64,000 nucleotides of DNA from Closterium sp. NIES-65 (Eukaryota; Streptophyta; Zygnematophyceae; Desmidiales; Closteriaceae): assembly GCA_948144175.1 (NCBI GenBank), contig CANXME010000053.1, positions 186,001 through 250,000 on the forward strand. Reading direction: 5' to 3'. Positions within the stretch are counted from its first letter, which is position 1; each line of letters starts with the position of its first letter. Made by a program: the position numbers and the translations under genes. Below are positions 24,599 to 45,638 of this stretch, piece by piece. The notes under the pieces were generated by a model. It saw nothing but the letters and a program-made list of their open reading frames with translations, made no database searches and had not been told where the DNA came from.

Positions 24599-26839
24599 GA
24601 CCAGCTGGAGCAACTGGCCTGTTGGTCCAATGGACCGGCAGAACCAAATAGCCTGTTGGTCCAATGGACCGATTGGACCAGCTGGCTTGTTGTTCCAATG
24701 GGCCGGCTTGACCAACTAGCCTGTTGGTCCAATGGACTAGCTGGACGAGCTGGCCCATAGGTCCAATGGACGAGTTGGACCATTTGTCCTGTTGGCCCAC
24801 TAGACCAGCTGGACCAACTAGCCTTTTGGCCCAGTGGACCGGCTGGACCACCTGGCTTGTTGGTCTAGTGGACCGGCTGGACTAACTGACCTCTTGGTCC
24901 ATTGGACCGGCTGGACCAACTAGTTTGTTGGTTTAATGGACCGGTTGGACCAACTGGACCAAGTGGCATGTTGATCCAATGAACCGGCTGGACCAACTGG
25001 CATGTTGGTCCAATGGACCGGCTGGACCAATTGGCCTGTTGGTCTAGTGTACCGGCTTAACCAACCGGCCCGTTGGTCTAGTGGACTTGCTGGACCAACC
25101 GGCTTGTTGGTTCAATGGACTGGTTTGACAAAACGGCATACTGGTTCAATGGACTAGCTTGTCTAACCAGCCTGTTGGTTCAGTGGACCGGCTGGACCAA
25201 CCGGCGTGCTGGTCCAGTGGACGGGCTGGACCAACCGGCCTGTTGATCCAATAAACCGGCTGGCCCAACCGTCCTGTTGGTCCAGTAGACTGATTGGACC
25301 ACTTGGACTGTTGGTGCAATGGACCGGCTAGACCAACCAGTCTGTTGGTCCAATGGACCGGCTGGACCAACTAGCCTGTTGGTCCAATGGACCGGCTGGA
25401 CCAACTGGCTTGTTGGTCCAATGGACCGGCTGGACCAGCTGGTCTGTTGGTCCAATGGACCAGGTGGACCAACAGGCCTGTTGGCCCACTGCACCGGCTT
25501 GACCAACTTGCATGTTGGCTCAGTGTACCGGCTGGACCAGCTGGCCAATAAGCCTAGTGGACCGGCTGGATCACCTGGCCGGTATGTCTACTGGACTGGC
25601 TGGACCAACTAGCTTGTTGGTCTAATGGACCGGCTGGTCCAATTGGCCTGTTGGTCCATTGGACAGGCTGGATCCATTGGCCTTTTGCTCCAATGGACCG
25701 GCTGGGTCAACTGGCCTGTTCTGTGGATCGGCTGAATCTGTTGGTCCAATGGACTGATTGGTTCACTTGGACTCTTGGTCCAATGGACCGGCTGGACGAA
25801 CTGGCCTATTCTTCAAGTGCACCGGCTGGACCAACTGGCCTGTTGGTCTAATGGACCGGCTGGACCAACTGGCCTCTTCGTCCAATGGACCGGCTGGACC
25901 AAATGGCCTGTTGGTCCTTTGGAACGGCAAGACCAACTGGCCAGTTGGTACAATGGACCGGCCTGGCCAACTTACCTGCTGGTCAAGTGGACCGGCTGGA
26001 CCAACCGGCCTGTTGGTCTAATAAACCGGCTGAACTAACTGGTCTGTTGGTCCAATGGACTGCCTAGACCAAATGGCTTGTTGGTCCAATGGACCGTCTG
26101 GACTGACTGGCCTGATTGTCTAATGGACCGACCGGACCAACAGGCCTATTGGTCCAATGGACTTGCTGGACCATCTGGCCCGTTGGTCGAATGGACCGGC
26201 TGGACGAGTTAGCCTGTTGGTTCAATGGACCGGCTGGACCAACTGTTTTGTTGGTCCAATGGAACGACTGGACCAACTGGCTTGTTTGTCCATTGGACCA
26301 GATTGGAAACCTGGACAATTGGTCAATGGACTGGCTGGACCAACTGGCCTGCTAGTCCATTTGACCGGATGGACCAACTGGCCTATTGGCCCGATAAACC
26401 AGCTCGAACATCTAGCTTGTTGGTCCAATGGACCGACTGGACCAACTGGTATGTTGGTCCAGTGGACCGGTTTGACCATGTGGATTGTTGGTCCAATGGA
26501 CCGGTTCGACCAACTGGCCTGTTGGCCCAATGCTCCGGTTGGAGCAACTGGCTTGTTGGTCCAATAGACTGGTTGGAACAATTGTCTTGTTGGTCCAATG
26601 GACCGGTTTGACCAAATCTCATTTGGCCTAATGAACCGGTTGGACCGACTGCCCGGTTTGCCCAATGGACCGGTTGGACCAACTAGCCTGTTACTCCAAT
26701 GTAATTGTTGGACCAGCTGGCAAATTAGCCTAAATAAGTCTTGTTGGCCCAACTTTCCTACTGGCCCAATGGACCGGTTGGACCATCTGCAGAGTTGGCC
26801 CAATGGACCAGTTGGACCAGCTGGCCTATTGGTCCGTTG

Positions 26840-27536
26840 TGTTAGAGAGTGAGGACGGAGTCTATGAAGATTAGGGGCTGAAATATAACAAAATTGTTGA
26901 ACTAGAATTTAGGAAAGAATTGTCGACTTCACAAGAAACGACGTTGACAAAAAGTTCAAGGTTTGAATGTTCTCTAACACAATTATGTTGTAGCCCTTGG
27001 CCGTAGCTATCTTTCCCAATTTGAATCGTATCAAAAGATGGAGTATAACTCAAGTTATGAATTTCGGCACACAATTTCCCCTCTCTATAGGAACCCAACT
27101 TTGACCCTTGTTCTTTTCCCAACCTCTCAAATTCACCTCACCAAACTTGGCCACACTTGCCAACCTGGTTTGGATTCTCCCAACAACTTGGCATTATCTA
27201 CAGTAATGGTGACAAATTTCCCAACCCCCAAAAGTCTACACCCCATATTGAGTCACTCCACAAATTCTCAAAGTCGCCACATTACAATTAAAACTTCGAA
27301 CGATCTTATCTTTCTCGTTCTTGCCCCGATCGCGGCGATTCTTGGTTCGTCAGAAAGCTTTCTAGCAAAAAAGTCATTTCAAACATCTGCACAAGCAAAA
27401 TATCATTTACACACACTCTTAGAATTCAAACCACACCAAATACGAATTCTTGCACACGCTCACACCACGCATGCAATGCATGAACATATGATGGGAGGCA
27501 GACAGACGTGAAAGTAAATGATAGCATCACATAACA
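26840..27536 (-). repeat. Solo LTR family 1 in the satellite, 143-bp deletion form (697 bp)
   Basis: Starts TGTTAGAGAG and ends CACATAACA, with satellite on both sides and no internal element sequence. Compared with the copy at 42560 it lacks 143 bp between TTTCGGC(G)CAC and ACAATTTCCCC, a deletion it shares with 35655-36351. Flanking five bases are CGTTG and CAATC, probably a decayed CAATG duplication. Orientation as in Cop1. Confidence 0.85.
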
Positions 27537-29201
27537 CAATCGACCGGTTGGAACAACTTGTCGGTTGGTCCAATGGACCGGCTGGACCAACGGATCTGTT
27601 GGTCCAATGGACCGGCTGGACCAACGGATCTGTTGGTCTAATGGACTGATTCGATCACTTGGACTGTTGATCCATTGGACCGGGTGGACCGACTAGCCTA
27701 TTGGTCCCATAAACCAGCTCGAACAACTGGCCGGTTGGTCCAATGGACCGACTCGACCAACTGGCCTGTTGGTCTAATGGACCGACAGAACAACCTGGCC
27801 TGTTGTTCTAATGGTATAGCTAGACCAACTGGCCAGTTGGTCTAATGGAGAGCTAGGACCAATTGGCATTTGTTCTAATGGACCAGCTGGACTAACTGGC
27901 CTGTAGGTTCAATGGACCGGTTGCACCAACTTTCCTATTGTCCAATGGAAAGACTGGACCAATTGGCTTGTTGGTGCAATGGACCGGTTGGACCACCTGG
28001 CCTGTTTGTCAAATGTACCGGTTGGACCAACTGGTCTGTTGGTCCAATGGACTAGCTGGACAACCTGGCCAGTTGGTCCAATGGACCGGCTGGACCAACT
28101 GGCCTGTTGGTCCAATCGACCGGCTGGACCAACAGCATATTGGTCCAATGGACTGGCAGGACCAACTGACCTGTTGGTCCAATGGACCGGTTGGACCAGG
28201 TGGCTTGTTGGTCCAATGGACCGGTTGGACCAGCTGGCCTGTTGGTCCGATGGACCAGTTTGGATCAACTGTTTTGTTGGCGCAATGGACCGGTTGGACC
28301 TACTAGTCCGTTTGTCCATTGAACCGGTTGGACCAACAGACCTGTTGGCCAAATGGACCGATTGGACCAACTGGCCAGTTGGACAAATGGACCAGTTGGA
28401 CCAATTAGCCAGTTGGCCAAATGGACCGGTTGCACCAACTGGCTTGTTGGTTCAATTGACTAATTGGACCAACAGGCCTGTTGGTCCAATGGACCGGTTG
28501 GAACAACTGGCCTGTTGGTCCAATGCTCCATTTGGACCAACATGCCAGCTGGCTCAATGGACCGGTTGGAACAACTGGCCTGTTGGTGCAACGGACCGGT
28601 TGGACAAACTGCTTGTTGGCCTAATGGACCAGTTGGACTAATTGGCCTGTTCATCTAATGGATCAGCTGGACCAACAGGCATTGGTCCAATGGACCGGCT
28701 GGACCAACTGGCCTGTTGGTCCAATGGATTGGTTGGACCAACAGGTCTGTTGGTCCAATGAACCGGTTGGACCAATAGGCCTGTTGGTCCAATAGACCGG
28801 TTGGAACAACTAGCCTGTTGGTCCGATGGACCGGTTGGAACAACTTGCCTATTGGTCTAATGGACGGATTGGACCAACTGGCGTGTTGGTCCTATGGACG
28901 GATTGGACCAACTGGCATGCTGGCCCAATCGATCGGTTGGACCAATTGGCCTGTTCGTCCAATGGACAGGCTGGACCAATTAGCATGTTGGCCATATGCA
29001 CTGGTTTGACGCATTCCCTGTTGGCCCAATGGACCGGTTGGTACAACTGCCTAGTCGGTCCAATGGACCGGTTGGAGCTAATGGCTTGTTGGTCCAATAG
29101 ATCGATTGGACCAACTCGATTGTTGGTCCAATGGACCGGTTGGACCAATTGGCCTGTTGGCCCAATGGACCGGTTGGAGCAACTGGCTTGTTGGTCCAAT
29201 A
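27537..29201. repeat. 34-bp satellite, block 2
   Basis: Mainly CGGTTGG-type monomers with GGCCCAATGG and GGCCTAATGG variants. Paralogous in order and detail to 36352-38000: for example the sequence around 27938-28140 recurs at 36719-36920 with scattered changes. Ends in GGTCCAATA, where element H is inserted. Confidence 0.95.
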
Positions 29202-29756
29202 TGTTGGTGCAACCCTACGGTTTGCACTCGGCTTGTTGTCCGTGTGCATGCAGGCATGTGTGCATGGAATGGAATGAGTGCATGAAATATATATATATTT
29301 ATTGATGACCACGTTACACGCGACTAGCGATAATTCGCTATTGACGCGACTAGCGATAATTTGCTATATTTATTGATGACCACGCTACACGCGACTAGCT
29401 ATAATTGGCGTGTAATGTGTGTGAATGATGGGTAATGATGTCGACTGTGTGTGTCCCGCGCGGTTTCTATCTTGTCGTGCGCGGTTTCTATTTTGTCGCT
29501 TGTCGAACGTTCGGCGTGTCGCAGGTGTGTGCAGTAGACCCATCAAGAACAAAGGATGAGTTTGTGATGAAGGACTCGAGCCCTAGATTAAAATTCCTAT
29601 TGTAGGCAATGTTACGACGCTCCAGATCCCAGTTGAATCAGGACATTTGGAGTTGTGAGCAGATCGCTATGAACGTTTAAATCCGCTGTGCAGAAATCTG
29701 ACTGTGCACTCTATCTTTCGTTTTTTGGCACATTGGAGCCTACTGTGACTATAACA
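29202..29756 (+). repeat. 5' LTR of element H (555 bp)
   Basis: TGTTGGTGCAACCC...GACTATAACA. It is shorter than the 3' LTR: the segment from GAAGGACCCGAGTCC to about TAAATTACATG of the 3' LTR (about 34846-35190) is replaced by a short stretch near 29575. It also carries a local duplication of GCGACTAGCGATAAT around 29320-29400 not seen at the 3' end. Confidence 0.85.
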
Positions 29757-29758
29757 AG

Positions 29759-29770
29759 TTGTATCTGAGC
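29759..29770 (+). promoter_or_regulatory. Primer-binding site of element H, degenerate
   Basis: TTGTATCTGAGC, two bases after the 5' LTR, differs from TGGTATCAGAGC at two positions. The position relative to the LTR and gag supports it. Confidence 0.7.
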
Positions 29771-29790
29771 CCCTTGGAGCAGTTTTGACA

Positions 29791-30753
29791 ATGTCTGGAC
29801 CTGAGGAAAGGGGTGGCAGAGGTGCTGGTGGCAGTGGAGAAGCCCAAGCACAAGGCCAGGCCCGTGATTCAGCCGTGGCGCCCGTGCAACCAAGTGTTGG
29901 CCCATCTAGGGATAAGCCTAGAGTGTTTGGCCTTAACAAGTTCAACGGTGACAACTTTGCTGAGTGGTCCTTCAGAATGGAGACGTGTTTGAACACTACG
30001 ATCTGCTGGAGGTGATGGAAGGAACGGAGAAGCGCCCCGAGAACGACCCGGAGAAGAGCCCGTGGGTGCGGAAGAGCGCACAAGGCTACCTCCTACTTGG
30101 GCAAGCGTTGGGAAGCAGCCAGATCCGTCACATCAAGCCATTCCAGCGTGAACCAGAGAAGAGACCAAAGGCATGGGCTGCTCTCAAGGGTGTACACGCT
30201 CCTGCAACAGCGGTGGTAGCTGTGGTGTTGGAACGGCAAATGGCGACGCTATTAATTGAGGAAGATGAACCCTTGGAAGACGGGGTGAAGAAATTCTTCG
30301 ACTTGTTGACGCGGCTTGAGGGAGCTGATTTGAACTACAGTGAGCTCCAGAAGGAGAACAAGTTGCTGGTCCTACTCCCCGAGTCGTGGTCCTCGCTCAT
30401 CATCAACTTGAACTGTGACCTGCCCCGTCTCTCGCTTGAAGACGTGAAGCGAGCAATCCTCCAAGAGGATTTCCGCCGCCGTGAGTTGGCGAGTGCGGAT
30501 GGCGCTGGGTCAGCAAGTGTTGGCCGTGGATATGGCCGACGAAGAGGTAGAGGACGAGGGGGAGGAAGGTTTGGTGGCAGCAACTTCGGCGGAGGCCGTG
30601 GGAGTGGCGGTTATGGCAGCGACGACAAGAGCTACGGGCGCGGTCGCGGCCGATTCGATGGCGACTGCCATTTATTGTCATAAGACCAGACACATGTGGC
30701 GCGATTGCTACAAGCTCCCTGATGGTGACCCCTGCTCAAGACCAAGAGGGTAG
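29791..30753 (+). pseudogene. gag: Copia Gag of element H, two frameshifts
   Basis: ATG at 29791 (MSGPEERGGRG). The N-terminus reads KPRVFGLNKFNGDNFAEWSFRMETCL, then a one-base shift near 29988 moves to FEHYDLLEVMEGTEKRP and on through QGYLLLGQAL, WAALKGVHAPATAVVAVVLERQM, LLPESWSSLIINL and ILQEDFRRREL to a Gly/Arg-rich tail (30530-30650). The zinc knuckle is split by a second shift near 30667: the first Cys lies in DCH and the remainder in YCHKTRHMWRDCYKLPDG. Domain order is that of the UBN2-type copia Gag. Confidence 0.88.
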
Positions 30754-31821
30754 AGGAGCAGGTGGAGGGAGAGGAAGAGGCTGTAGAGGCCGTGGCGGTC
30801 GCGGTGGCGGAGCTGCAAACATGAAGAGCGGAGACAACGACAAGGACCCAAGCGACGGTCGGTACCCGGGTCTATTCTACTTTGTGTCGACGCAAGTACC
30901 GGCTGGTCCAGAGAAGGACGAAGGCTTTGAGGAGCCAGCAGCTGTGGGGAAGGTGACCCTACACCCCCTGGACTATTGGGTGATCGATAGCGGCGCTATC
31001 TAAAGCATGACACCTCGCCCGGACTTGCTCACCGAACTCGAACCGTCACCGGTGAAGCATGTCACATCGGCTTTGGGGCAGCGAGCAGAGGTGAAAGGCA
31101 TGGGCAAGGCCATGTTCAAGGGTGCTGATGGGAAGATGGTGGGCCTCAAGAACGTGCTTTGGGTGCCCAGCCTTGCTGCGAACCTGATTTCCGTGCGGCG
31201 GTTGGCAAAGGCCGGCATGGACACGAACTCGAAGGGAGCCAAGACCTACACCGCAAGGCTTGGCAATCGGATCCTTTGGGACCTTCATGAGGACAGGGAT
31301 GTCTACAACGAGATGTGGCAGATCTTTGTGGTCCCTATGCCTAAGGAGAGGCAAGTGGCAGCAAGCATCAGCGCCAAGGGTGAAGCGGTTGGTAGCGGCG
31401 ATGGTGCGAACGGTCGCGTTAAGTAGAATGAGTCCAACAAGTGGAAACTTGGAGGGACCAGCAAGAAGAGTGAACCTACGGAGAGTGATGCAGCAGCCAA
31501 GGAGCAGCACAAGGGTGAGGAGAACCCCAAGGCAGCTGCGGACGAGGAGTACGGAGAGAGGATGTGGGGCGCTATTGCGAGCGCGGCATTCTCCAATCCG
31601 ACTTCGACTACGGGGGAGTGTGATTGGCTCACTTTGCATCGGCGCATGGGGCATGTGGCCTTGCCTATTTTGCAGCAGCTAGTTAAGGGAGAGATGGTTG
31701 CTGGTATACGTGTGAAGGGGGAGCCCGATGAGGTGCTTGGCTGCCCGACGTGCATTCAAGCCAAGTTCACCCGGTTTCCGTTCCCTAGTTCGGAGGCAAT
31801 GGCAAAGACACCACTTATGAG
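30754..31821 (+). pseudogene. pol: Copia protease and pre-integrase of element H
   Basis: Gly/Arg-rich segment, then WVIDSGAI with an intact D-S-G protease site at about 30985, immediately cut by TAA at 31001. The frame resumes SMTPRPDLLTELE and LKNVLWVPSLAANLISVRRLAKAGM, the standard protease C-terminal part. A TAG occurs at 31424. The pre-integrase zinc motif is LTLHRRMGHVALPILQQL...GCPTCIQAKFTRFPF (31625-31780). Confidence 0.88.
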
Positions 31822-32748
31822 GTGGTGATGGACGTGGTGGGCCCCCTAAAGCTTGGAGCTGCTATAGCTGAGTATTTCCTCACCATTGTGGATGTGTACA
31901 CCTGCATGACTTGGGTGTATGTGCTGGCCAAGAAGAGTGACGTGGCTGAAACATTGAAGACGGATTGGTTCCCGATGGTGGAGCGGCAACAAGACCACCT
32001 TGTCAAGTCAATCCGCACCGATCGAGGGGGAGAGTTCCTGAGCAAGGAGTTTGGGTTGTGGCTGAAGAAGAATGGTATTAGGCACTCCCTCACCATGCCA
32101 TACTCCCCTGCAATGAACCGCACAATCACGGAGGCGGCACGCGGGTTGCTCATTGAAGTCGGGCTACCCGACTATTTCTGGCCTGATGCGGTGCGGAGTG
32201 CATGTGTGGCCAAGAACAGAGCCCTGACTCATGTGAGAGCAGACAAACAGGTGCCCTATGTGGAGGGGATTGGAAGGAAGCCTAAGATGGATATGCTTCG
32301 GGTGTTCGGGTGCATCTGCATGGCGCTCGTGCCTAAGCATCTTCGGCACAACAAGCTTGGTGCCAAGGCGATATGGGCTGTGCACTTGGGCATGGCTCGA
32401 AACAGCAAGGGCTGGCTTTTTTGGGACCCATTCACCAAGAAGTTCTTGGTGAGCAGGGACTGCAAGTTCATGGAGAACTTCATATACAAGGATTGGAAGG
32501 CGGAGAATGAGTTGAAGATAGGCGTGCGGTTTGGGGAGGTGAAGAGTTCCGGTTTGGAGCGTGTGGAGCTGCCTTTGGAGCTGAGCAGCGGTAGCACTAC
32601 CACAAGGCAATCTTCCCTTGTGAATGGGGGAGAGGAGGCCAATGATACAGAGGAAGAAGAGGAGGAGGTGCAGCAAGTGAGCGAGCGTGCACCGTCACTC
32701 CCTTCCCGTACTACGAGTGCTCCACGGATTCGAGCCGCACCGCAGTAA
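31822..32748 (+). pseudogene. pol: Copia integrase of element H, catalytic Glu deleted
   Basis: Open frame of 308 codons. First acidic site VMDVVGPLK, second SIRTDRGGEFLSKEF. The third site is missing: family members read NGVAER(A/M)NRT, but here YSPA joins MNRTITEAARG at about 32112, an in-frame loss of roughly seven residues including the Glu. It continues KPKMDMLRVFGCICMALVPKH, GWLFWDPFTKKFLVSRD and an acidic Glu-rich linker (TEEEEEEVQQ). Length and order are otherwise normal, so the lesion can be judged clearly. Confidence 0.88.
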
Positions 32749-32874
32749 CGCCAAGGCCTTCAAGTCCCTGCAGCTGAGGAGGAAGGAAGGGGGAAGAGGA
32801 GAGTTCAACCCCCTAATAGGCTGACCTATGATGCACCAGGAAAGCAAGGCAAGACGGCCTTAGCCGGAGCGGCA

Positions 32875-34510
32875 ATGATGGTCGGAGACGATGAGGAGAG
32901 TGACTACGAGGAGTGTGCCTTCACGTTCTTCTCTCCGGTGGAGATGCCGGGAGAACCAGCAACTCTCAAGGAGGCTTTGGAGAGTAGTGATGCTGAGGAG
33001 TGGAAGAAGGCCATGGAGAGTGAGCTGAAGAGCATCGAGGAGAATGACACGTTTGAATTGGTGGAGCTACCGGAGGGGCGTACGGCGATAACGTCCAAGT
33101 GGCTCTTCAAAATCAAGTCGGATGCCGACGGCAAGATCAAGCGCTACAAGTCTAGGCTTGTAGCCAAGGGGTACCAGCAGAAGTAGAAGGTGGACTTCAA
33201 GGAGCTGTTTGCTCCTGTGGTGAAGCCGACGACGGTGCGAACCCTACTCGTGGGAGCCGCCATCAAAGGATGGGTGGTAAAGCAAATGGACATCGTAACG
33301 GCATTCCTTAACGGCATCCTTGAGGAGGAGATTTTTATGGCGTAGCCAGAGGGGTTTGATGATGGTAGTGGCAGAGTGTGGAAGCTGAAGAAGGCCCTCT
33401 ATGGGCTGAAGCAGGCCCCTAGGCAATGGTACATGAAGCTGCGCAAAGTGTTGGAGGAATCGGCTTCACTCCCTCAACGGCCGATCACTCCTTGTTCATG
33501 CTTGGCGGGGGGGAGCAGAGGAGCTTCATGGTGGTTTATGTGGATGACATTCTCATATTCTCACCCTCCTCTGACCTGGTGAAGGAGGTGATGCTGAAGC
33601 TGCAAGACAAGTTCAAGTGCAAGTCCCTTGGTGACGTCAACTTCTACCTTGGGCTCCACATCGAACGAGGCGTGGAGAAGCGGAGCATGCGAGTGCACCA
33701 ACGGAAGTACCTGGAGGCGTTGGCCGCCAACTTCGGCCAGAGTGAAGGTCATGTGGCTACTCCCTTTCCCTCTGTGTTCAAGTGTGTGAAGGGGCCAGAG
33801 GAGGAGAGCGTTGGAGAAGAGGAGAGGCGCCGTTTTCACTCGTTGGTGGGCAGCCTCATGTATGCGGCGGTAAACACCCGACCGGATGTCGCGTTTGCTA
33901 CTGGGCAGCTGGCAAGGGTTGTGCAATGCCCTAATGAGGAGCAGGTAGCAGCTGGAATGAGAGTGGCCAAATACCTTGGCCAAACACCGACCGTTGGGCT
34001 ACAATACTCGGCGGTGATGGAGTTGAACCCGGGCGTTTGATTCTCACCGCCTACTCGGATGCTTCTTATGCATCGGAACTAGAGGACACGACTAGTGTGG
34101 GAGGCTTCATTTGCTGTGTTGGTGGAGGCCCAACTACTTGGGAGAGCAAGAAGCAGTTGGACCAAGCATTGAGCTCGGTGGAGTCCGAGTGCATGGCACT
34201 CTTCCGTGCCGTACGGGAGATTGTGTGGCAGCGGCGTTTGTTGGCTGAATTGGGGGAGGAGCAGCAAGGACCTACCCCACTCTACTGTGACAGCCAGGGT
34301 GCCATTGCACTAGCCAAGAATCATGTGTTGCACGGCCTCACCAAGCACATGAGGGTGAAGTGGCACTGGACGAGGAGCATGGTGGCCGCGGGTGAAGTTG
34401 AGTTGCACTATGTGAAGACGACGGGGCAGCCGGCTGACATGATGACCAAGAGGCTGGTGGAGCAGCAGCATTGGAAGTGTTGCAAGCTGGCTGGGATGGC
34501 TCTGAATTAA
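32875..34510 (+). pseudogene. pol: Copia reverse transcriptase and RNase H of element H
   Basis: RT start EWKKAMESELKSIEENDTFELVELP, SKWLFKIKSDADGKIKRYKSRLVAKGYQQK, a TAG at 33184, FAPVVKPTTVRTLL, QMDIVTAFLNGILEEEIFMA, a TAG at 33343 in place of the usual Gln of MAQPEG, LKKALYGLKQAPRQWY, a shift near 33460, then FTPSTADHSLF and the intact catalytic box VVYVDDILIFS (about 33545). The thumb/connection is FHSLVGSLMYAAVNTRPDVAFATGQLARV. After a shift near 34035, RNase H: LTAYSDASYASE, SSVESECMALFRAV, CDSQGAIALAKN, GLTKHMRVKWHWTR, TGQPADMMTKRL. Stop TAA at 34508-34510. A related fragment is at 4795-5169. Confidence 0.92.
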
Positions 34511-34549
34511 GAGAGCAACATCCTAAGGCCAACAATCCGAGGGGGAGTT

Positions 34550-35359
34550 TGTTGGTGCAACCCTACGGTTTGCATTCAGCTTGTTGTCCGTGTGCGTGCA
34601 TGCGTGTGGGCATGGAATGGAATGAGTGCATAAAATAAATATATAGTTCATGCTTATAATGGTGTGTGAATGATGGGTAATGATGTCAAGAGTGTGTGTC
34701 GATTCAATAGCGAATTATCACTAGTCGCGTGTAACGTGGTCATTTTGTGTGTCCCGCGCGGTTTCTATTTTGTCGCTTGTCGAACGTTCTGCGTATCGCA
34801 GGTGTGTGCAGCAGATCCATCAGGAACTCAAGGATGAGTTTGTGATGAAGGACCCGAGTCCTGGTGTCAACGTTCAAGTGATCGCGAAGCTCGCCAAAAG
34901 GGTACACCTTAATAAATTGAAAATAGTTACATTACTTTGTGTAGTGTGACATTTCACTTGGTGTAGGCCCTAGTGAAGGGTAGTTTCGAGACCCTTCGTG
35001 GTTGGGGACAGTGTGGCACTGTTCTACATCACTGTACCTTGGCTCTTGGGGTTTGTAGAAGCTGGGAGTCATTCCCAACTCGTAACTCTTCCCAACTCTT
35101 CCTAATTTGTGTTCTAATACTATAGTGGCTGCCATAGTGCCGTTAGCTCCAACCGATGCTGTGTCGTCAATACTTGGTTAAATTGTGCGATCTAAATTAC
35201 ATGTTGTAGGCGACGTTAAGACGCTCCAGATACAAGTTAAATCAGGTCATTTGGAGTTGTGAGCAGATCGCTATGAACGTTTAAAGCCGCTGTGCAGACA
35301 TCCGACTTTGCACTTTATCTTTCGTTTTAGGCACATTGGAGCCTATTTTGACTATAACA
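34550..35359 (+). repeat. 3' LTR of element H (810 bp)
   Basis: TGTTGGTGCAACCC directly after the polypurine tract, ends GACTATAACA at 35359. It is the fullest family 3 LTR in the window and aligns with the split LTR at 5209-6936. Confidence 0.88.
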
Positions 35360-35654
35360 GAATAGACTGGCTGGAACAACTGGCATGTTGGTCCTATGGA
35401 CCGGTTGGACCAAATCTCATTTGGCCTAATGAACCGGTTGGACCGATTGCCCAGTTTGCCCAATGGACCGGTTGGACCAACTAGCCTGTTAGTCCAATGG
35501 ACTTGTTGGACCGACTGGCAAATTAGCCTAAATAAGTCTGGTTGGACCAACTTTCCTACTGGCCCAATGGACCGGTTGGACCAACGGACCGGTTGGACCA
35601 ACTGCAGGGTTGGCCCAATGGACCCGTTGGACCAGCTGGCCTGTTGGTCCATTG
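35360..35654. repeat. 34-bp satellite, block 3 (short)
   Basis: About 295 bp of CGGTTGG-type satellite between element H and a solo LTR. It reproduces the order of 26570-26839, including the unusual GGACCAAATCTCATTTGGCC and GCAAATTAGCCTAAATAAGT strings. Confidence 0.95.
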
Positions 35655-36351
35655 TGTTAGAGACTGAGGACGGAGTCTAAGAAGATTAGGGGCTGAAATA
35701 TCACAAAATCGTTGAACTAGAATTTAGGAAAGAATTGTCGACTTCACAAGAAACGCCGACGACAAAACGTTCACAGTTTGAATGTTCTCTAACACAAGTA
35801 TGTTGTAGCCCTTGGCCGTGGCTATCTTTCCCAATTTGAATTGTATTAAAAGATGGAGTATAACTCAAGTTATGAATTTCGGCACACAATTTCCCCTCTC
35901 TATAGGAACCCAACTTTGACCCTTGTTCTTTTCCCAACCTCTCAAATTCACCTCACCAAACTTGGCCACACTTGCCAACCTGGTTTGGATTCTCCCAACA
36001 ACTTGGCATTATCTACAGTAATGGTGACAAATTTCCCAACCCCCAAAAGTCTACACCCCATATTGAGTCACTCCACAAATTCTCAAAGTCGCCACATTAC
36101 AATTAAAACTTCGAACGATCATATCTTTCTCGTTCTTGCCCTGATCACGGCGATTCTTGGTTCGTCAGAAAGCTTTCTATCAAAAAAGTCATTTCAAACA
36201 TCTGCACAAGCAAAATATCATTCACACACACTCTGAGAATTCAAACCACACCAAATACGAATTCTTGCACACGCTCACACCACGCATGCAACGCACGAAC
36301 ATCTGATGGGAGGCAGACAGACGTGAAAGTAAATGATAGCATCACATAACA
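35655..36351 (-). repeat. Solo LTR family 1, 143-bp deletion form (697 bp), second copy
   Basis: TGTTAGAGACTG...CACATAACA, same length and same internal deletion as 26840-27536. Flanks are CATTG and CAATG, a 5-bp duplication with one change. The satellite on both sides also matches the first copy, so this is a duplicated block, not a second insertion. Confidence 0.88.
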
Positions 36352-39300
36352 CAATGGACCGATTGGAACAACTTGTCGGTTGGTCCAATGGACCGGCGGG
36401 ACCAACGGATCTGTTGGTCCAATGGACTGATTGGATCACTTGGACAGTTGGTCCATTGGACCGGGTGGACCAACTAGCCTATTAGTCCCATAAACCAGCT
36501 CGAACAATTGGCCGGTTGGTCCAATGGACCGACTCGACCAACTGGCCTGTGGGTCTAATGGACCGACAGGACAACCTGGCCTGTTTTTCTAATGGTATCG
36601 CTAGACAAACTGGCCAGTTGGTCTAATGGAGAGCCAGGACCAATTGGCATTTGTTCCAATAGACCAGCTGGACTAACTGGCCTGTTGGCTCAATGGACCG
36701 GTTGCACCAACTTTCCTATTGTCGAATGGAAAGACTGGACCAATTGGCCTGTTGGTGCAATGGACCAGTTGGACCACCTGGCTTGTTTGTCAAATGTACC
36801 GGCTGGACCAACTGGTCTGTTGGTCCAATGGACCTGCTGGACAACCTGGCCAGTTGGTCCAATGGACCGGCTGGACCAACTGGCCTGTTGGTCCAATCAA
36901 CCGGCTGGACCAACGGCCTATTGGTCCAATGGACTGGTAGGACCAGCAGGCCTGTTGGTCCAATGGACCGGTTGGACCAGGTGGCTTGTTGATCTAATGG
37001 ACTGGTTGGACCAGCTGGCCAGTTGGTCCGATGGACCGGTTTGGATCAACTTTTTTGTTGGCCCAATGGACCGGTTGGACCTATTAGTCCGTTGGTCCAT
37101 TGAACTGGTTGGACCAACAGACCTGTTGGCCAAATGGACCGCTTGAACCAACTGGCTAGTTGGCCAAATGGACCAGTTGGACCAACTAGCCAGTTGGCCA
37201 AATGGACCGGTTGCACCAACTGGCTTGTTGGTTCAATGGACCAATTGGACCAACAGGCCTGTTGGTCCTATGGACCGGTTGGAACAACTGGTCTGTTGGT
37301 CCAATGCTCCATTTGGACCAACATGCCAGCTAGCTCAATGGACTTGTTGGAGCAACTGGCCTGTTGGTCCAAGGGATCGTTTAAAACAACTGGCCTATTG
37401 GTGCAACGGACCGGTTGGACAAACTACTTGTTGGCCTAATGGACCAGTTGGACCAACTGGCCTGTTGGTCCAATGGATCGGTTGGACCAAGAGGCATTGG
37501 TCCAATGGACCGGTTCGACCAACTAGCCTGGTTGTCCAATGGATCAGTTGGACCAACAGGTCTGTTGGTCCAATGAGCCGGTTGGACCAATAGGCCTGTT
37601 GGTCCAATAGACTGGTTGGAACAACTAGCCTGTTGGTCCAATGTTTAGTTGGACCAACTGCTAGTTGGCCAAATGGACCGAATGGAACAACTTGCCTTTT
37701 GGTCCAACGCACAGGTTGGAACAACTAGCCTATTGGTCTAATGGACCGGTTGGACCAACTGGCGTGTTGGTCCTATGGACGGATTAGACCAACTGGCATG
37801 TTGGCCGAATCGATCGGTTGGACCAATTGGCCAGTTTGTCCAATAGACAGGTTGGACCAATTAGCATGTTGGCCAAATGGACTGGTTTGAAGAACTCCCT
37901 ATTGGCCCAATGGACCGGTTGGTACAACTGGCCAACTGGCCTAATGGATTGGTTGGAACAACTGGCTAGTTGGTCCAATGGACCGGTTTGACCAATTGGC
38001 CTGTTGGCCAAATGTACTAATTGTACCAGCTACCTGTTAGCCCAATGGACTAGTTGGACAAACTGCCCAGTTGGCCTAATGGACTGGTTGGACGAACTGA
38101 CTTGTTGGTCCAATGGACTGATTGGACCAACAGGCCTGTTGGTCCCATGGACCGTTTGGACAAACTGCCTAGTTGGCCAAATGGACTGGTTAGACGAACT
38201 GGCTTGTTGGTACAATGGACTGATTAGACCAATAGGCCTGTTGGTCCCATGGACCGGTTGGCCCAACTGGCTTGTTGGTCCAATGGACCAGTTGGAATAA
38301 CTGGCTTGTTGGTCCTATGGACCCGTTGGGCCAACTGGCTTGTTGGTCCAATGGACCGGTTGGAACAACTGGCCTGTTGGTCCAGTGGGCCAGTTGGAAC
38401 ATCTCGCCTGTTGGTCTAGTGGACCGGCTGGACCAGCTATCCTGTTGGTCCAATGGACCAGCTGACTTACTGGCCTGTTGGTCCAATGGACCGGCTGGAC
38501 CAACTCGTGTGTTGGTCGAAGGGGCCTGCTAAACCAACAAGCCTGTTGGTCCAATGGACTGGCTGGACCAACCGGCCTGTTGGTCCTATGGACCGGCTTG
38601 ACCAACCGGCCTGTTGGTCCAATGGACCGGCTAGACCATCCAGCCTGTTGGTCCAGTGGGCCGACTGGACCTACCGATCTGTTGGTCCAATGGACCGGCA
38701 AGACCAACCGGCCTGTTGGTCCAATCGACCGGCTGGACCAACCGGCCTCTTGGTCCAATGGACCGGCTAGACCAACCGGCCTGTTGGTCCAATGGACCGG
38801 CTGGACCATACGGCTTGTTGGTCCAATGGATCGCCTGGACCAAACAGCGTGTTGGTGCAATGGACCGGCTGGTCCAACCGGCCTCTTGGTCCAATGGATT
38901 GGCTGGCCCAATCGGCCTGTTGGTCCAATGGACCGATTGTGCCACCTGGACTGTTGGTCCATCAGACCGAATGGACCAACAAGCCTTTTGGTCCAGTGGA
39001 CTGCTTGGACAAACTGGCCTGTTGGCCCAATGGACCGGTTTGACCAACTGGACTGTTGGTCCAATGGACCGGCTGGACCAACCGGCTTGTTGGTCCATTG
39101 GACCGGGTGGACCAACTGGCCTCTTGGCCCAATGGACCGGCTGGTCCAAATAGTATGTTGGCCCAATAAACCATCTCGAAAAATTAGCCTATTGGTCTAG
39201 TGGACCGGCTCAACTAACTGGCCTGTTGGTCCAATGGACCGGTTCGACCACCTGGATAGTTGGTCCAATGGACCGGCTAGACCAAGTGGCCTGCTGGTCC

Positions 39301-39756
39301 ATTGGACCGGGTGGACCATGTGGCCTGTTGGCCCAATAAACCAGCTTGAACAACTGGCCTGTGTGTCCAATGGACCGACTGGACCAAATGGCCTATTGTT
39401 CTAATGGAACAGCTAGACCAACTAGCCTGTTGGTCCACTGGACAGGCTGGACTAACTGGCCTGTTGTTCCTACGGACCAGCTGGACCAACTGGCTTGTTG
39501 GTCCAATAAACTGGTTGGACCAACTGGCCTGTTCGTCCAATGGAAAGTCTGGACCAATTGACCTGTTGGTCTAATGAACCGGTTGGACCAACTGGCCTGT
39601 TGGTCCAATAGACCGGCTGGACCAGCTGGCCTGTTGGTCCAATGGATCGTTTGGACCACCTGGTCTGCTAGTCAAATGTACTGGTTGGACCAACTGGTCT
39701 GTTAGTCAAATGTACCATTTGGACCACCTGGTCCGTTAGTCAAATGTACCGGTTGG
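36352..39756. repeat. 34-bp satellite, block 4
   Basis: 36352-38000 is a paralogue of block 2. About 38400-39300 switches to CGGCTGG-type monomers with AACCGGCCTG, resembling block 1, then returns to mixed types. Ends at GGTTGGACC where a truncated LTR begins. Confidence 0.95.
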
Positions 39757-40219
39757 ACCCCATAAGCACACAATCTCCCCTCTCCACAGGAACCCAACTT
39801 CGACCCTTCTCCTTTTCCCAACCTCTCAAACTCACCTCACCAAACTTGGCCACACTTGCCAACCTAGTTTGGCTTCTCCCAACCCCTTGGCATCATCTAC
39901 AGTAATGGTGATGAATTTCCCAACCCCACGTTGAGTCACTCCACAAATTCACAAAGTCGCCACATCACAGCCAAAACTTCGAACGATCACATCTTTCTCA
40001 TTCTTGCTCCGGTCGCTGCTATTCTTGGCTCGTTGGAAAGCTTTCTAGCAGAGAAGTCATTTCAAATATCTGCACAAGCCGAAAATCACTCACACACACT
40101 CTGAGAATTCAAACCACACCATATACAGATTCTTGCATACGCACATACCGCGCATGCAACACACGAACATATGATGGGAGGCAGACAGACGTGAATGTAA
40201 ATGATAGCATCACATAACA
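39757..40219 (-). repeat. LTR family 1 copy lacking its left end (463 bp)
   Basis: Satellite passes directly into CCCATAAGCACACAATCTCC, equivalent to about 42937 of the full copy, and runs to CACATAACA at 40219. The left half of the LTR is missing. The right junction with satellite is the same as in the other copies (TAATGGACC here, CAATGGACC elsewhere). Confidence 0.85.
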
Positions 40220-42559
40220 TAATGGACCAGTTGGAACAACTGGTCTGTTGGTCTAAAGGATCGGTTGGAACAGTTGGCCTGTTAGTGTAATGGACCTGTT
40301 GGACAAAATGCTAGTTGCCCTAATGGACCAGTTGGACTGACTCTTCAGTTTGACCAATAGACTGGTTGGACCAACTAGCCTGTTGGTCCAATGGACCAAT
40401 TAAACCAGGTGGTCTGTTGGTCCAATCGACCAGTTGGAACAATTGGCATGTTGGTTCGATGGACCCTTTGGACCAACTGCCAGTTGGCCTTATGGACCGG
40501 TTAAAACAATGGCATGTTGCTCTAATGGACCGGTTGGAATAACTGGCCAATTGGTCCAATGGACCGGTTGGAACACCTGGCCTGTTGGTCTAATGGACCC
40601 ACTAGACCAACTGCCTATTGGCCTAATGGAGTTGCTGGACCGACTGCCCAGTTCGCCCAGTGGACCGGTTGGACCAACTGGCATGTTGGTCCAATGGACC
40701 AGTTGGACCACGAGGCAAATTGACCTAATGGACAGGTTGGATCAACTGGCCTGTTGGTCCAATGGACCGGTTGGACCGATTGGCCTGCTGGTCCTATGGA
40801 CCGGTTGGACCAACTGTCCAGTTGGCCCAATGGACCGGTTGGACCAGCTGGCCCTTTTGTCCAACGGGCCGGTTGGAACAACTGGCATGTTAGTCCAATG
40901 GACCGGTTGGAGCAACTTGCTTGTTGGTGCAAAGCACCGGTTGGATAAACTACTAGTTGGCCTTATGGACCGGTTGGACTGACTGCTCAGTTTGCCCAAT
41001 GGACCGGTTGGACCAACTAGCTTGTTGGTCCAATAAACCGGTTGGACCAACTGGTCTGTTGGTCCAAAGGACCGGTTGGACCAATTGGCCAATCGACCTA
41101 ATGGATTGGTTGGAACAACTGGCCAGTTGGCCCAATGGACCGGTTGGACAAACTGCCCACTTGGCCTAATGGACCGGCTGGACCAACTGGCTCGTTGGTC
41201 CAATGGACCGATTGGACCAACAGGCCTGTTGGTCCCATGCATCGGCTGGACCAACTGGCGTGTTGGTCCAATGGACCAGTTAGAACAGCTGGCCTTTTGG
41301 TCCAATGGACCGGTTGGACCAACTGGCTTGTTGGTCCAATGGACCGGTGGGACCAACTGCTAGTGAGTCCAATGGACCAGTTGGAACAAGTGGTCTGTTG
41401 GTCCTGTGGACCCGTAGGAACAACTAGCCTGTTGGTCCAATGGACAGGTTGGGACTAGCTGGCATGTTGGCCTATTTGATGTGTTGGACAAACTGGCCAA
41501 TTCTTCCAATGGAACGGTTGGACCAATTGGCCTGTTGGAAAAATGGACCCGTTGGACCAACTCCTTGTTGGCCCAATGGACTGGTTGGATCAACTGGCTT
41601 GTTGGTCCAATGGACCGATTGGTTCAACTGGCCTGTTGGTCCAATGGACTAGTCAGAATAATTGGCCGGTTGGTCCGATGGACCCTTTGGACCAACTACC
41701 AGTTGGCCTTATGGACCGGTTGAATCAATTAGCCTATTGGTCCAATGGACCAATAGGACCAACTGCATGTTGGCCTCATCGACTGGTTGGACCGACTGCC
41801 CAGTTAGTTCAATGGACCGGTTTGACCAACCGGCTTGTAGGTCCAATGGACCGGCTGGTCCATCTCGCAAATTGGCCTGATGGACTTGTTGGATCAACTG
41901 GCTTGTTGGTCCATTGGACCGGTTGGACCAACTACCAGTTGGCCTAATTGGCTGGTTGGACCGATTGGCCTGCTGGTCCTATGGATCGGCTGGACCAATT
42001 GGCCTATTGGTCCAATGGACCGATTGGACCAACAGGGTTGTTGGTCCAATGGACCGATTGGAACAACTGCCAATTGGCCTAATGGACTGGTTGGATCGAC
42101 TGTCTTGTTTGCCCAATGGACCGGCTTGACCAACTGGCCAGCTGGTCCAATGGACAGGTTGGACCAACTGGCCTGCTCATCCTATGGACCGGCTGGACCA
42201 ACTGGCCTGTTGGTCCAATGGACCGGTTGGACCAACTGGCCAATTGGCCTAATGGACCGGTTGGAACAACTTGCCTGTTGGTCCAATAGACCAGTTGGAA
42301 CACCTGGCTTGTTGGTCCAGTGGACCGGTTCGACCAAATCTCATTTGGTCCAATGTACCGGTTGGACCAAATCCCATTTGGCCTAATGGAGCGGCTGGAC
42401 TCATTGCCCAGTTTGCCCAATGGACCAGTTGGATCAACTAGCCTGTTGGTCCAATGGACCGGTTGGACCAACTAGCCAATTGGCCTAAATAGACTAGTTG
42501 GACCAACTGCCGAGTTGGCTCAAGGGACCGGTTGGACCAGCTGGCCTGTTGTTCCAATG
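40220..42559. repeat. 34-bp satellite, block 5
   Basis: CGGTTGG-type monomers with many GGCCTAATGG and GGCCCAATGG variants. Colinear with 43400-45400 at an offset of 3,180 bp. Ends GTTCCAATG, the left target duplication of the next LTR. Confidence 0.95.
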
Positions 42560-43399
42560 TGTTAGAGACTGAGGACGGAGTCTATGAAGATTATGGGCTG
42601 AAATATCACAAAATCGTTGGACTAGAATTCAGGACAGATTTGTCAACTTCACAAGAATCGTCGTTGACAAAAAGATCATAGTTTGAATGTTCTCAAACAC
42701 GATTATGTTGTAGCCCTTGGCCGTGGCTACCTTTCCCAATTTGAATCGTATCAGAAGATAAAGTATAACTCAAGTTATGAGTTTCGGCGCACTAGGGGTC
42801 AGCTGCCAGAGAAACTTAACTCAATAACAAAAATCTCACAAGAACTACACATGAAAGTTGGAGTGGCTAGAAACCAGGTAGGAGGGTATGAGGAGGACGA
42901 GAGGGAAGGTCCCAAGGGAGTCCCCACCCAAGGAAACCCCATAAGCACACAATTTCCCCTCTCCACATGAACCCAACTTCGACCCTTTGCGTTTTCCCAA
43001 CCTCTCAAACTCACCTCACCAAACTTGGCCACACTTGCCAACCTGGTTCTGCTTCTCCCAACCACTTGGCATCATCTACAGTAATGGTGATGAATTTCCC
43101 AACCCCATATTGAGCTACTCCACAACTTCCCAAAGTCGCCACATCACAGCCAAAACTTCGAACGATCATATCTTTTTCGTTTTTGCTCCGATCGCTGCTA
43201 TTCTTGGTTCGTCGGAAAGCTTTTTAGCAGAGAAGTCATTTCAAATATCTGCACAAGCCAAAAATAATTCACACACACTCTGAGAATTCAAATCACACCA
43301 AAATACAGATTCTTGCACGCGCTCATACCATGCATGCAACGCACGAACATATGATGGGAGGCAGACAGACGTGAATGTAAATGATAGCATCACATAACA
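42560..43399 (-). repeat. Solo LTR family 1, full form (840 bp) with exact target duplication
   Basis: TGTTAGAGACTG...CACATAACA, flanked by CAATG at 42555-42559 and CAATG at 43400-43404. It retains the 143 bp missing from the copies at 26840 and 35655. No coding region is attached, so it is a solo LTR left by recombination between the two LTRs of an inserted element. Confidence 0.92.
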
Positions 43400-45402
43400 C
43401 AATGGACCGGTTGGAACAACTGATCTGTTGGTCTAATGGACCGGTTGGAACAGTTGGCCTGTTAGTGCAATGGACCTGTTGGACAAAACGCTAGTTGCCC
43501 TAATGGACCAGTTGGACCGACTCTTCAGTTTGCTCAATGGACTGGTTGGACCAACTAGCCTGTTGGTCCAATGGACCAAATAAACCAGGTGGTCTGTTGG
43601 TCCAATCGACTAGTTGGAACAATTGGCATGTTGGTCCGATGGACCCTTTGGACCAACTGCCAGTTGGCCTTATGGACCGGTTAAAACAATGGCCTTTTGG
43701 TCAAATGGACCGGTTTGACTAACTGGCCAAGTGGTCCAATGGACCGGTTGGAACACCTGGCCTGTTGGTCCAATGGACCCACTGGACCAACTGCGTATTG
43801 GACTAATGGAGTTGTTGGACCGACTGCCCAGTTTGCCAAGTGGACCGGTTGGACCATGTGGCAAATTGACCTAATGGACTGGTGGGATCAACTGGCCTGT
43901 TGGTCCAATGGACCGGTTGGACCGATTGGCCTGCTGGTCCTATGGACCGGATGGACCAACTGTCCAGTTGGCCCAATGGACCGGTTGGACCAGCTGGCCC
44001 GTCTGTCCAATGGACCGGTTGGAACAACTGGCTTGTTGGTCCAATGGACCGGTTGGAGCAACTTGCTTGTTGGTGCAATGGACCGGTTGGACAAACTACT
44101 AGTTGGCCTAATGGACCGGTTGGACCGACTTCTCAGTTTGCTCAATGGACCGGTTGGACCAACTAGCTTGTTGGTCCAATAAACTGGTTGGACCAACTGG
44201 TCTGTTGGTCCAAAGGACCGGTTGGACCAATTGGCCAATTGGCCTAATGGACTGGTTGGAACAACTGGCCAGTTGGCCCAATGGACCGGTTGGACAAACT
44301 GCCCACTTGGCCTAATGGATCAGTTGGACCAACTGGCTCGTTGGTCCAATGGACCGATTAGACCAACAGGCCTGTTGGTCCCATGCACCGGCTAGACCAA
44401 CTGACCTGTTGGTCCAATGGACCAGTTGGAACAACTGGCCTTTTGGTTCAATGGACCTGTTGGACCAACTGGCTTGTTGGTCCAATGGACCAGTTGGAAC
44501 AAGTGGTCTGCTGGTCCAGTGGACCCGTAGGAACAACTAGCCTGTTGTTCCAATGGACGGGTTGGGACCAACTGGCATGTTGGCCCAATTGATCTGTTGG
44601 ACAAATTGGCCAGTTCTTCCAATGGAACGGTTGGACCAATTGGACTGTTGGCAAAATGGACCCGTTGGACCAACTCCTTGTTGGCCCAATGGACCGGTTG
44701 GATCAACTAGCTTGTTGGTCCAACGGACCGATTGGACCAACAAGACTGTTGGTCCAGTGGACCAATTGGTTCAACTTGCCTGTCGGTCCAATGAACTAGT
44801 CAGAACACTTGGCCTGTTGGTCCGATGGACCCTTTGGACCAACTACCAGTTGGCCTTATGGACCGGTTGAAACAACTGGCCTGTTGGTCCAATGGACCAA
44901 TTGGACCAACTGCATGTTGGCCTCATCGACCGGTTGGACCGACTGCCCAGTGGCCCAATGGACCGAATTTGACCAACTGGCTTGTAGGTCCAATGGACCG
45001 GTTGGACCAACACGCAAATTGGCCTAATTGACTGGTTGGATCAGCTGGCTTGTTGGTTCAATGGACCGGTTGGACCGATTGGCCTGCTGGTCCTATGGAC
45101 CGGTTGGACCAATTAGCCTGTTGGTCCAATGGACCGATTGGACCAACAAGGTTGTTGGTTCAATGGACCGGTTGGAACAACTGCCAGTTGGCCTAATGGA
45201 CTGGTCGGACCGACTGTGCAGTTTGCCCAATGGACCGGCTTGACCAACTGGCCAGCTGGTCCAATGGACCGGTTGTACAACCTTGCCTGCTCGTCCTATG
45301 GACCAGCTGGACCAACTAACCTGTTGGTCCAATGGACCCGTTGGACCAAGTGATGTGCTGGTCTAAAGGACCGCTTGGACCAGCCGGCATGTTGGTCCAA
45401 AG
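43400..45402. repeat. 34-bp satellite, block 6
   Basis: Last satellite block, paralogous to block 5. It ends abruptly at about 45402 (GTTGGTCCAAAGG), where the truncated LTR of element A begins. Confidence 0.95.
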
Positions 45403-45638
45403 GAACTGCAAAGATTCCATCTTTGGTTCCTTTGCGAACTCGTACTTTCTGCTTGCATTGCTCATAGGGCGTACAATGTTGTGCCGAAGCGCACATTGCG
45501 CGAATACCTGCAAATGCATCAAGCGAAAATTGTGAAAGCAATTACACGAACACACCATTCATACGCAAATGCATTCCCACATGCTTACTCGTACAAACAG
45601 ACGGCAGGATGTCTTGCAAAGTGAATTTGCACCCAACG
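45402..45638 (-). repeat. 3' LTR fragment of element A (family 2)
   Basis: Minus strand reads (T)GTTGGGTGCAAATTCAC from about 45638, matching the start of the solo LTR at 50764, and is cut after about 237 bp at the satellite boundary. The expected TG terminus reads CG, apparently a point change. Confidence 0.8.

Follow-up and report, generated by a model that had tools for sequence, protein, structure and literature searches.

The satellite array and its four LTR copies

An array of a 34-bp satellite (2 x 17) was identified at positions 16972-45404 of the window, the whole 64,000-nucleotide stretch of Closterium sp. NIES-65 DNA that was analysed. The array, which was delimited from period-34 TRF rows and has no assigned strand, is broken by LTRs and by one nested retrotransposon. 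Further arrays of this satellite are present elsewhere in the genome. Satellite sequences compared out of register are approximately 75% identical, and this value was taken as background.

Four copies (U1, U2, U3 and U4) of one ~0.7-0.84 kb LTR element lie in the array, and the positions and single orientation given for them in the first-pass annotation were confirmed. Their sense strand is the minus strand, the orientation being taken from the PBS-like and PPT-like flanks of relatives. U1 (26840-27536) and U2 (35655-36351) are both 697 bp long and have the same internal deletion, by which U1 lacks ~158 bp present in U4. U4 (42560-43399) is the most complete copy, with 840 bp. U3 (39757-40219) is missing its left ~376 bp, and hence also its left junction; it is cut at a satellite/LTR junction with a 3-bp (ACC) microhomology. 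A 16-bp deletion is common to U3 and U4. U1, U2 and U4 have the termini TGTTAG...ATAACA, and their flanks are CGTTG/CAATC, CATTG/CAATG and CAATG/CAATG, respectively, corresponding to a decayed target duplication in U1 (2/5), a 4/5 match in U2 and an exact 5-bp duplication in U4 (5/5).

With TG...CA ends, 5-bp target duplications and solo copies elsewhere, the four copies belong to a true LTR retrotransposon family. LTRs of this sequence also occur in pairs in longer elements, including an element on contig C2251 (interior read in part) that has two LTRs and PBS-like and PPT-like motifs and sits inside another array of the same 34-bp satellite. LTR pairs 5-6 kb apart were found on contigs C1798 and C1155. 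A copia-type gag domain (PF14223) adjoins the related LTR X1 (1248-2123) on the expected strand, and the inserting element was probably Ty1/copia. Equal 5-bp flanks were found in 8 of 31 LTR rows; two of these, L023 and L026, have a PPT-like right flank and for that reason were left out of the solo LTRs. When both strands were scanned at up to 2 mismatches (an earlier version covered one strand and exact words), none of the 33 LTR loci outside the window (31 distinct places) had satellite-like words closer than ~1.5 kb, so insertion into the satellite is uncommon.

The placement of all four copies at the same point of the monomer holds for the right junction in 4/4 copies and for the left junction in 3/4, that of U3 having been lost. 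Equal phase and orientation, which had been listed in favour of a common origin, are not diagnostic, because an independent insertion on another contig (C1450) shares both with the window copies. Equal insertion phase in a satellite should therefore be treated with caution, as it is no proof of common descent.

Duplicated units and their flanks

The four copies form two tandem pairs, U1/U2 (lineage A, unit ~2.64 kb) and U3/U4 (lineage B, ~3.18 kb). Unit A1 (26483-29117, plus strand, ~2.64 kb) contains a left flank, LTR U1 and a right flank; its limits come from an in-register comparison with A2, made in windows of 120 bp. The second tandem copy, A2 (35361-37950, plus strand), has its first ~80 bp (29118-29197) to the left of the nested element. 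Unit B1 (39757-42559, plus strand, period ~3.18 kb) contains the truncated LTR U3, its right flank and the left flank of U4, and unit B2 (42560-45404, plus strand) contains LTR U4 and its right flank up to the array end. With the nested element bridged, the A1/A2 junction is seen to lie in the satellite and not in the LTR. False haplotype duplication was considered and would not account for the units, which are observed in the order A A B B and not A B A B.

The nested element (29202-35359, plus strand) is a copia-type retrotransposon of a different LTR family, with the Pfam domains rve, RVT_2 and Retrotran_gag_2 and the flanks CAATA/GAATA. It was rejected as a marker of the duplication boundary, since the A1/A2 junction lies ~84 bp to its left. 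Its LTR pieces are 88.6-91.7% identical and, judged by divergence, are no younger than the host duplication (flanks 93.4% identical); divergence does not follow the nesting order.

Units of a pair are more alike (~93%) than monomers out of register, as is the case in higher-order repeats. Such repeats also consist of many tandem copies, and in this array units A and B each occur twice; further LTR-satellite units were not seen in the parts read of other arrays. The earlier description of the LTR as absorbed into the satellite as part of a higher-order repeat is overstated for 2+2 copies. Moreover, kb-scale duplication happens in this array without the LTR too: an exact tandem duplication (20335-24602, plus strand, 2,136 bp identical, offset 2,132) is the longest ungapped match in the array and has no LTR inside.

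The right flanks R1 and R2 showed 103 differences in 1560 aligned bases (203 gap bases aside) and R3 and R4 showed 125 in 1903 (205 gap bases aside), each pair being 93.4% identical in register, gaps aside. The first blast identities of the U1-U2 flanks (84-87%) were dropped in favour of this value, which was obtained once the 34-bp indels had been placed properly. The suggestion that the LTR evolves much slower than its flanks came from those blast values and was rejected after the correction. Between the pairs, 4/4 in-register comparisons of A and B right flanks were no better than random phase-matched satellite, and the right-flank tree gave the same result. Matching right flanks, which the first-pass annotation had claimed for the copies in general, were thus found within pairs but not between U1/U2 and U3/U4. 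At 38000-38430 the A and B sequences may become similar again, but this weak signal, with scores barely above background, was not used.

The variant GACCAAATCTCATTTGG, reported on the left side of U1, U2 and U4, was located at 26610-26626, 35408-35424 and 42332-42348, respectively (all plus strand), and in the window is joined only by a local copy with one mismatch at 42365. When 2 mismatches are allowed, these 4 matches are all that the 64 kb contain, compared with 0 expected (100 shuffles). In a tree of the left flanks that included 18 random phase-matched controls, the grouping of L1, L2 and L4 received 93/97, from a bootstrap that had not settled, and that of L1 and L2 received 100/99. When L1 or L2 was the query, 0/547 random sites reached the A-B scores of the left flanks; when L4 was the query, 1/547 did. 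An earlier scoring with junctions 1-2 bases off was weaker, some random sites reaching up to 152 with the L4 query versus observed scores of 140.8 and 144.6.

The LTRs of U1 and U2 showed 23 differences in 698 positions and those of U3 and U4 showed 34 in 461; in the latter pair, the divergence of LTR and flank did not differ (Fisher p 0.53). A 34-row LTR tree recovered a U1-U4 clade (100/100) composed of (U1,U2) (100/100) and (U3,U4) (100/98), and a 36-row tree (32 rows besides U1-U4) gave the same grouping. Both trees were built without L024 and L030 (too long), L004 and L005 (same places as the set of L021 and L019) and the C53 loci (U1-U4 being taken from the window). A second tree was discarded, as its rows had been cut by raw position and those with the internal deletion were misaligned. 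When the separate trees proposed earlier are compared, LTR and left flank agree, and the right flank agrees within pairs only. Among 40 copies scored of 3409 candidates, in which U1 and U2 themselves were unlisted and from which closer copies may be missing if they carry deletions, the best outside copy was 82% identical over 826-840 bases; with a short query, the best was 85% identical over 155 of 172 bases.

Origin of the embedded copies

Duplication within each pair, the common LTR clade, the common left flank and the target duplication of U4 are established at this locus. We infer a single insertion behind both pairs, and the history that fits best, and a likely one, is one insertion followed by solo-LTR formation and duplication together with the satellite. 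This history had been proposed in the first-pass annotation and is partly supported; the sharing of right flanks between pairs, which had formed part of it, is abandoned.

An LTR retrotransposon would have inserted once into the 34-bp array, duplicating the 5 bp CAATG, and its two LTRs would have recombined to a solo LTR, a step suggested because a single LTR lies between the target duplications. Duplication of the solo LTR with its left flank would have given lineages A and B, ~11% apart in the LTR, and a separate tandem duplication in each lineage, of 2.64 kb in A and of 3.18 kb in B, would have produced U1/U2 and U3/U4, whose right flanks are ~6.6% apart within each pair. U3 would then have lost one end, and another copia element would have inserted near the A1/A2 junction. 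The simplest account of the differing A and B right flanks would be a breakpoint or an exchange near the LTR's right end. Against this history stand the non-homology of the A and B right flanks in register, the decayed target duplication of U1, the same phase and orientation reached independently on C1450, the unsettled left-flank bootstrap with the weaker earlier scoring, the 40 of 3409 candidates scored in the copy search and the divergence of the nested copia, which is out of step with the nesting order.

The difference between the A and B right flanks would also be expected if two close relatives had inserted independently, one ancestral to U1/U2 and the other to U3/U4, and each had been duplicated with its flanks. 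Their common phase could then arise if the near-palindromic centre GGTCCAATGGACC were a preferred target, and the C1450 insertion, with its equal phase and orientation, fits such a preference. Two insertions are nevertheless unlikely, as A and B have a common left flank with the variant GACCAAATCTCATTTGG found nowhere else in the window and are sister clades to which none of the outside copies scored is closer than the above values. In addition, the left part of the LTR (9.9-10.8%) and its right part (10.7-11.4%) diverge evenly between A and B, so nothing points to a chimera made from two insertions.

Under the single-insertion reading, the LTR seems to have been carried along as a passenger in kb-scale duplication and not to have driven it, because an LTR-free part of the array holds the exact 2,136-bp tandem duplication. 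The LTRs of U1 and U2 contain a 273-bp tract free of differences, whereas such runs do not exceed 67 bp in the four other segments compared, and this tract probably reflects gene conversion. It is quite improbable, but conceivable, that the LTR within the array serves as a unique anchor guiding exchange in an otherwise register-free satellite, its copies converting each other along this tract, keeping units in register and seeding higher-order structure. The same tract would fit a role of LTR homology in driving the duplications and later conversion, thereby creating the higher-order units; with the longest ungapped match free of LTR sequence and the A1/A2 junction in the satellite, such a role is very improbable. 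Four independent insertions at a hot spot, to which the equal phase and orientation of the copies keeping a junction would conform, are hardly credible, being contradicted by flank alignments (~93% in register within pairs), by indels common to the members of each pair and by the U1-U4 LTR clade.

Comparison with other plant satellites

The copying of a solo LTR along with its satellite is a real but ordinary event in the evolution of repeat DNA, and similar cases are known from plants; the ATHILA elements of Arabidopsis are further precedents. The Closterium loci provide a compact record of a transposon remnant joining a satellite array: the array on C2251 holds a two-LTR element, and that of the window holds a solo LTR and its duplicated descendants.

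A close precedent is maize centromere 10, where a 22.7-kb adjacent segmental duplication includes a CR2 solo LTR, and CentC higher-order repeats formed via adjacent duplication, one being later interrupted by CR1 (PMC4806543). In both systems, local tandem duplication has copied a solo LTR, blocks of satellite have been duplicated in tandem, a junction shows microhomology and later insertions hit the downstream copy. Within its 22.7-kb unit, the maize solo LTR is surrounded by nested CR elements, and the satellite is a different one, whereas the solo LTR of Closterium is directly embedded in the satellite and has given rise to two pairs. Satellites of Lathyrus are described as derived from tandem repeats inside LTR retrotransposons (PMC7004042). 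Satellite and LTR element lie side by side in both cases; unlike the Lathyrus repeats, the Closterium satellite is the host of the insertion, and outside element interiors no sign was seen that the 34-bp repeat derives from the element. In the pSc200/pSc250 subtelomeric arrays of rye, solo LTRs are enriched beside the arrays and co-amplification has been proposed (PMC4857426). The association of solo LTR and satellite and the proposed co-amplification are alike in both systems; the rye association is statistical over many arrays, whereas in Closterium one array is resolved copy by copy.

The satellite array and its two tandem duplications

A degenerate 34-bp satellite array occupies positions 16972-45404 of the window (G000:C53:186001-250000, 64 kb of an 874-Mb genome). 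Its right half carries four copies of one element in a single orientation, as the first-pass annotation had claimed: the LTRs U1 (26840-27536), U2 (35655-36351), U3 (39757-40219) and U4 (42560-43399). U4, at 840 bp, is the most complete. The same ~158 bp of U4 is missing from both U1 and U2, a 16-bp deletion is common to U3 and U4, and U3 has lost ~376 bp on its left side, the break showing a 3-bp microhomology. The U3 truncation point (39757) and the right end of the internal deletion of U1/U2 (~27066) lie at most ~10 bp apart on the LTR, which is possibly a fragile spot or chance. Long stop-free frames run on both strands through the satellite (17044-45404), where the 34-bp period would translate into a repeat of 34 residues; these frames are taken as meaningless.

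The copies fall into pair A (U1/U2) and pair B (U3/U4). In ungapped 120-bp windows, U1 and U2 stay in register from the left flank through the LTR and over ~1.5 kb of right flank; identity is mostly 91-97%, dipping to ~82% at gains or losses of monomers. U3 and U4 do likewise through the LTR and ~2 kb. The satellite out of register is ~75% identical. Gapped alignments gave 20/269 differences between the left flanks of U1 and U2 (L1, L2), 23/698 between their LTRs and 103/1560 between their right flanks (R1, R2); the corresponding values for pair B were 34/461 for the LTRs and 125/1903 for the right flanks (R3, R4). The pairs represent two separate tandem duplications, of ~2.64 kb and ~3.18 kb.

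Element family and insertion phase

U4, whose ends are TG...CA, is flanked on both sides by the 5-bp repeat CAATG without mismatch. Exact 5-bp flanking repeats also occur in 8 of 31 relatives elsewhere in the genome, six of which (L007, L008, L012, L015, L017 and L020) look like solo LTRs; L023 and L026 were left out of this count owing to a polypurine-tract-like right flank. Other relatives carry, on one side of the LTR, TCTGATACCACT, which we take to be a primer-binding-site-like motif for the initiator tRNA, or AACTCCCCCTCT, presumably polypurine-tract-like on the other strand. The primer-binding-site-like motif is present in a related LTR at 1248-2123, which is adjoined by a copia-type gag (PF14223) on the expected strand. 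An element with both LTRs (L053:5489-6333 and L065:576-1253) and both motifs lies within another array of the same satellite, on contig C2251, in opposite orientation to the window. Together, these features identify an LTR retrotransposon, very probably of the Ty1/copia type, which in the window array has its sense on the minus strand.

Arrays of the 34-bp satellite are found on many contigs. Satellite-like words on either strand within ~1.5 kb were found at none of 33 LTR loci outside the window array (31 distinct places). Among the other arrays, which were read in part (L041-L054, L059-L061, L063, L064), a family LTR occurs in only two, on C2251 and C1450. The small array on C1450 runs straight into the LTR (L063:2230-3256) at a junction, GTCCAGTTG/TGTTAGAG, with the orientation of the window and a phase equal within one base; this is a left junction only, the LTR being broken off further right. 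As this LTR clusters with L031/L032 (100/97), outside U1-U4, it inserted independently. The element on C2251 differs in phase. Of the three independent insertions seen, two thus have a phase in common. The sequence GGTCCAATGGACC is near-palindromic around CAATG, and integration there might be favoured. Flanks inspected by eye at the targets of the six solo LTRs gave no obvious palindrome.

One insertion or two

The first-pass annotation had proposed one insertion, reduced to a solo LTR and co-amplified with the satellite as a higher-order repeat with matching flanks. In an LTR tree of 34 rows, U1-U4 form a single clade (100/100) containing (U1,U2) (100/100) and (U3,U4) (100/98). The closest outside copy is 82% identical among 40 of 3409 candidates scored, a list with gaps in that U1 and U2 themselves are absent from the matches listed. 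A query of 172 bases, for which 40 of 1978 candidates were scored, puts it at 85%, the same search giving U2 at 93% and U4 at 90%. The left flanks of U1, U2 and U4 agree with this clade: in a tree with 18 random pieces of satellite matched for phase, L1, L2 and L4 group together (93/97), with an unsettled bootstrap. When L1 or L2 was the query, 0/547 random sites reached the left-flank scores between the pairs; with L4, 1/547 did. A previous scoring, in which the junctions were slightly misplaced, gave weaker support: with L4, some of 542 random sites scored higher (up to 152) than the observed 140.8 and 144.6. The left-flank variant GACCAAATCTCATTTGG does match as described, lying within the window only left of these three copies; of 16 additional satellite loci that were searched, two had a slightly shorter form, and both of these belong to the array in the window itself.

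The right flanks count against one insertion. In a tree with 14 controls they group within pairs only (R1 with R2 and R3 with R4, each 100/100), and between pairs their similarity is no better than chance, so the claimed match holds inside each pair and fails across them. LTR divergence between the pairs is uniform along the length (9.9-10.8% and 10.7-11.4%), and a chimera of two insertions is thus not indicated. We favour a single insertion into satellite ancestral to U1-U4, with a subsequent breakpoint or exchange close to the LTR's right boundary.

Duplication, probable gene conversion and the nested copia

The array's longest ungapped match is LTR-free: 20335-22470 equals 22467-24602 over 2,136 bp exactly, at an offset of 2,132. 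This tandem duplication of satellite is very recent or else an artefact of assembly; unless it is the latter, the LTR would be a passenger, unnecessary for kilobase-scale duplication here.

The LTRs U1 and U2 share a difference-free stretch of 273 bp (27033-27305 and 35848-36120), while their right flanks are 6.6% apart; in the other four segments that were compared, such runs reach 67 bp at most. The right part of this LTR pair is less diverged than the flanks (9/463 vs 103/1560, Fisher p 4e-5). In the left part, divergence is not below that of the flanks (14/224, p 1.0), and the effect is absent from U3-U4. The simplest and likely cause is gene conversion between U1 and U2. Their shared internal deletion has its breakpoint inside the 273-bp tract and therefore gives no independent support for common descent.

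The present array is a further case of a kind already known in plants. In maize CEN10, adjacent segmental duplication copied a solo LTR, the downstream copy later took insertions, and CentC higher-order repeats arose by adjacent duplication (PMC4806543); in rye, solo LTRs are enriched next to satellites (PMC4857426). To that extent, maize CEN10 and the window array are alike in a solo LTR copied by tandem or adjacent duplication and in an insertion into the downstream copy.

A copia-type retrotransposon of another LTR family is nested in the array at 29202-35359, with a near target duplication (CAATA/GAATA). Compared across it, 26483-26562 matches 29118-29197 at 76/80, which locates the junction between the two copies of the ~2.64-kb unit and places its entry ~84 bp into the second copy. 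Its LTR pieces are 88.6-91.7% identical; by this divergence it would be no younger than the duplication hosting it, which does not fit neatly with the nesting. Its right LTR seems to carry an extra ~325 bp.
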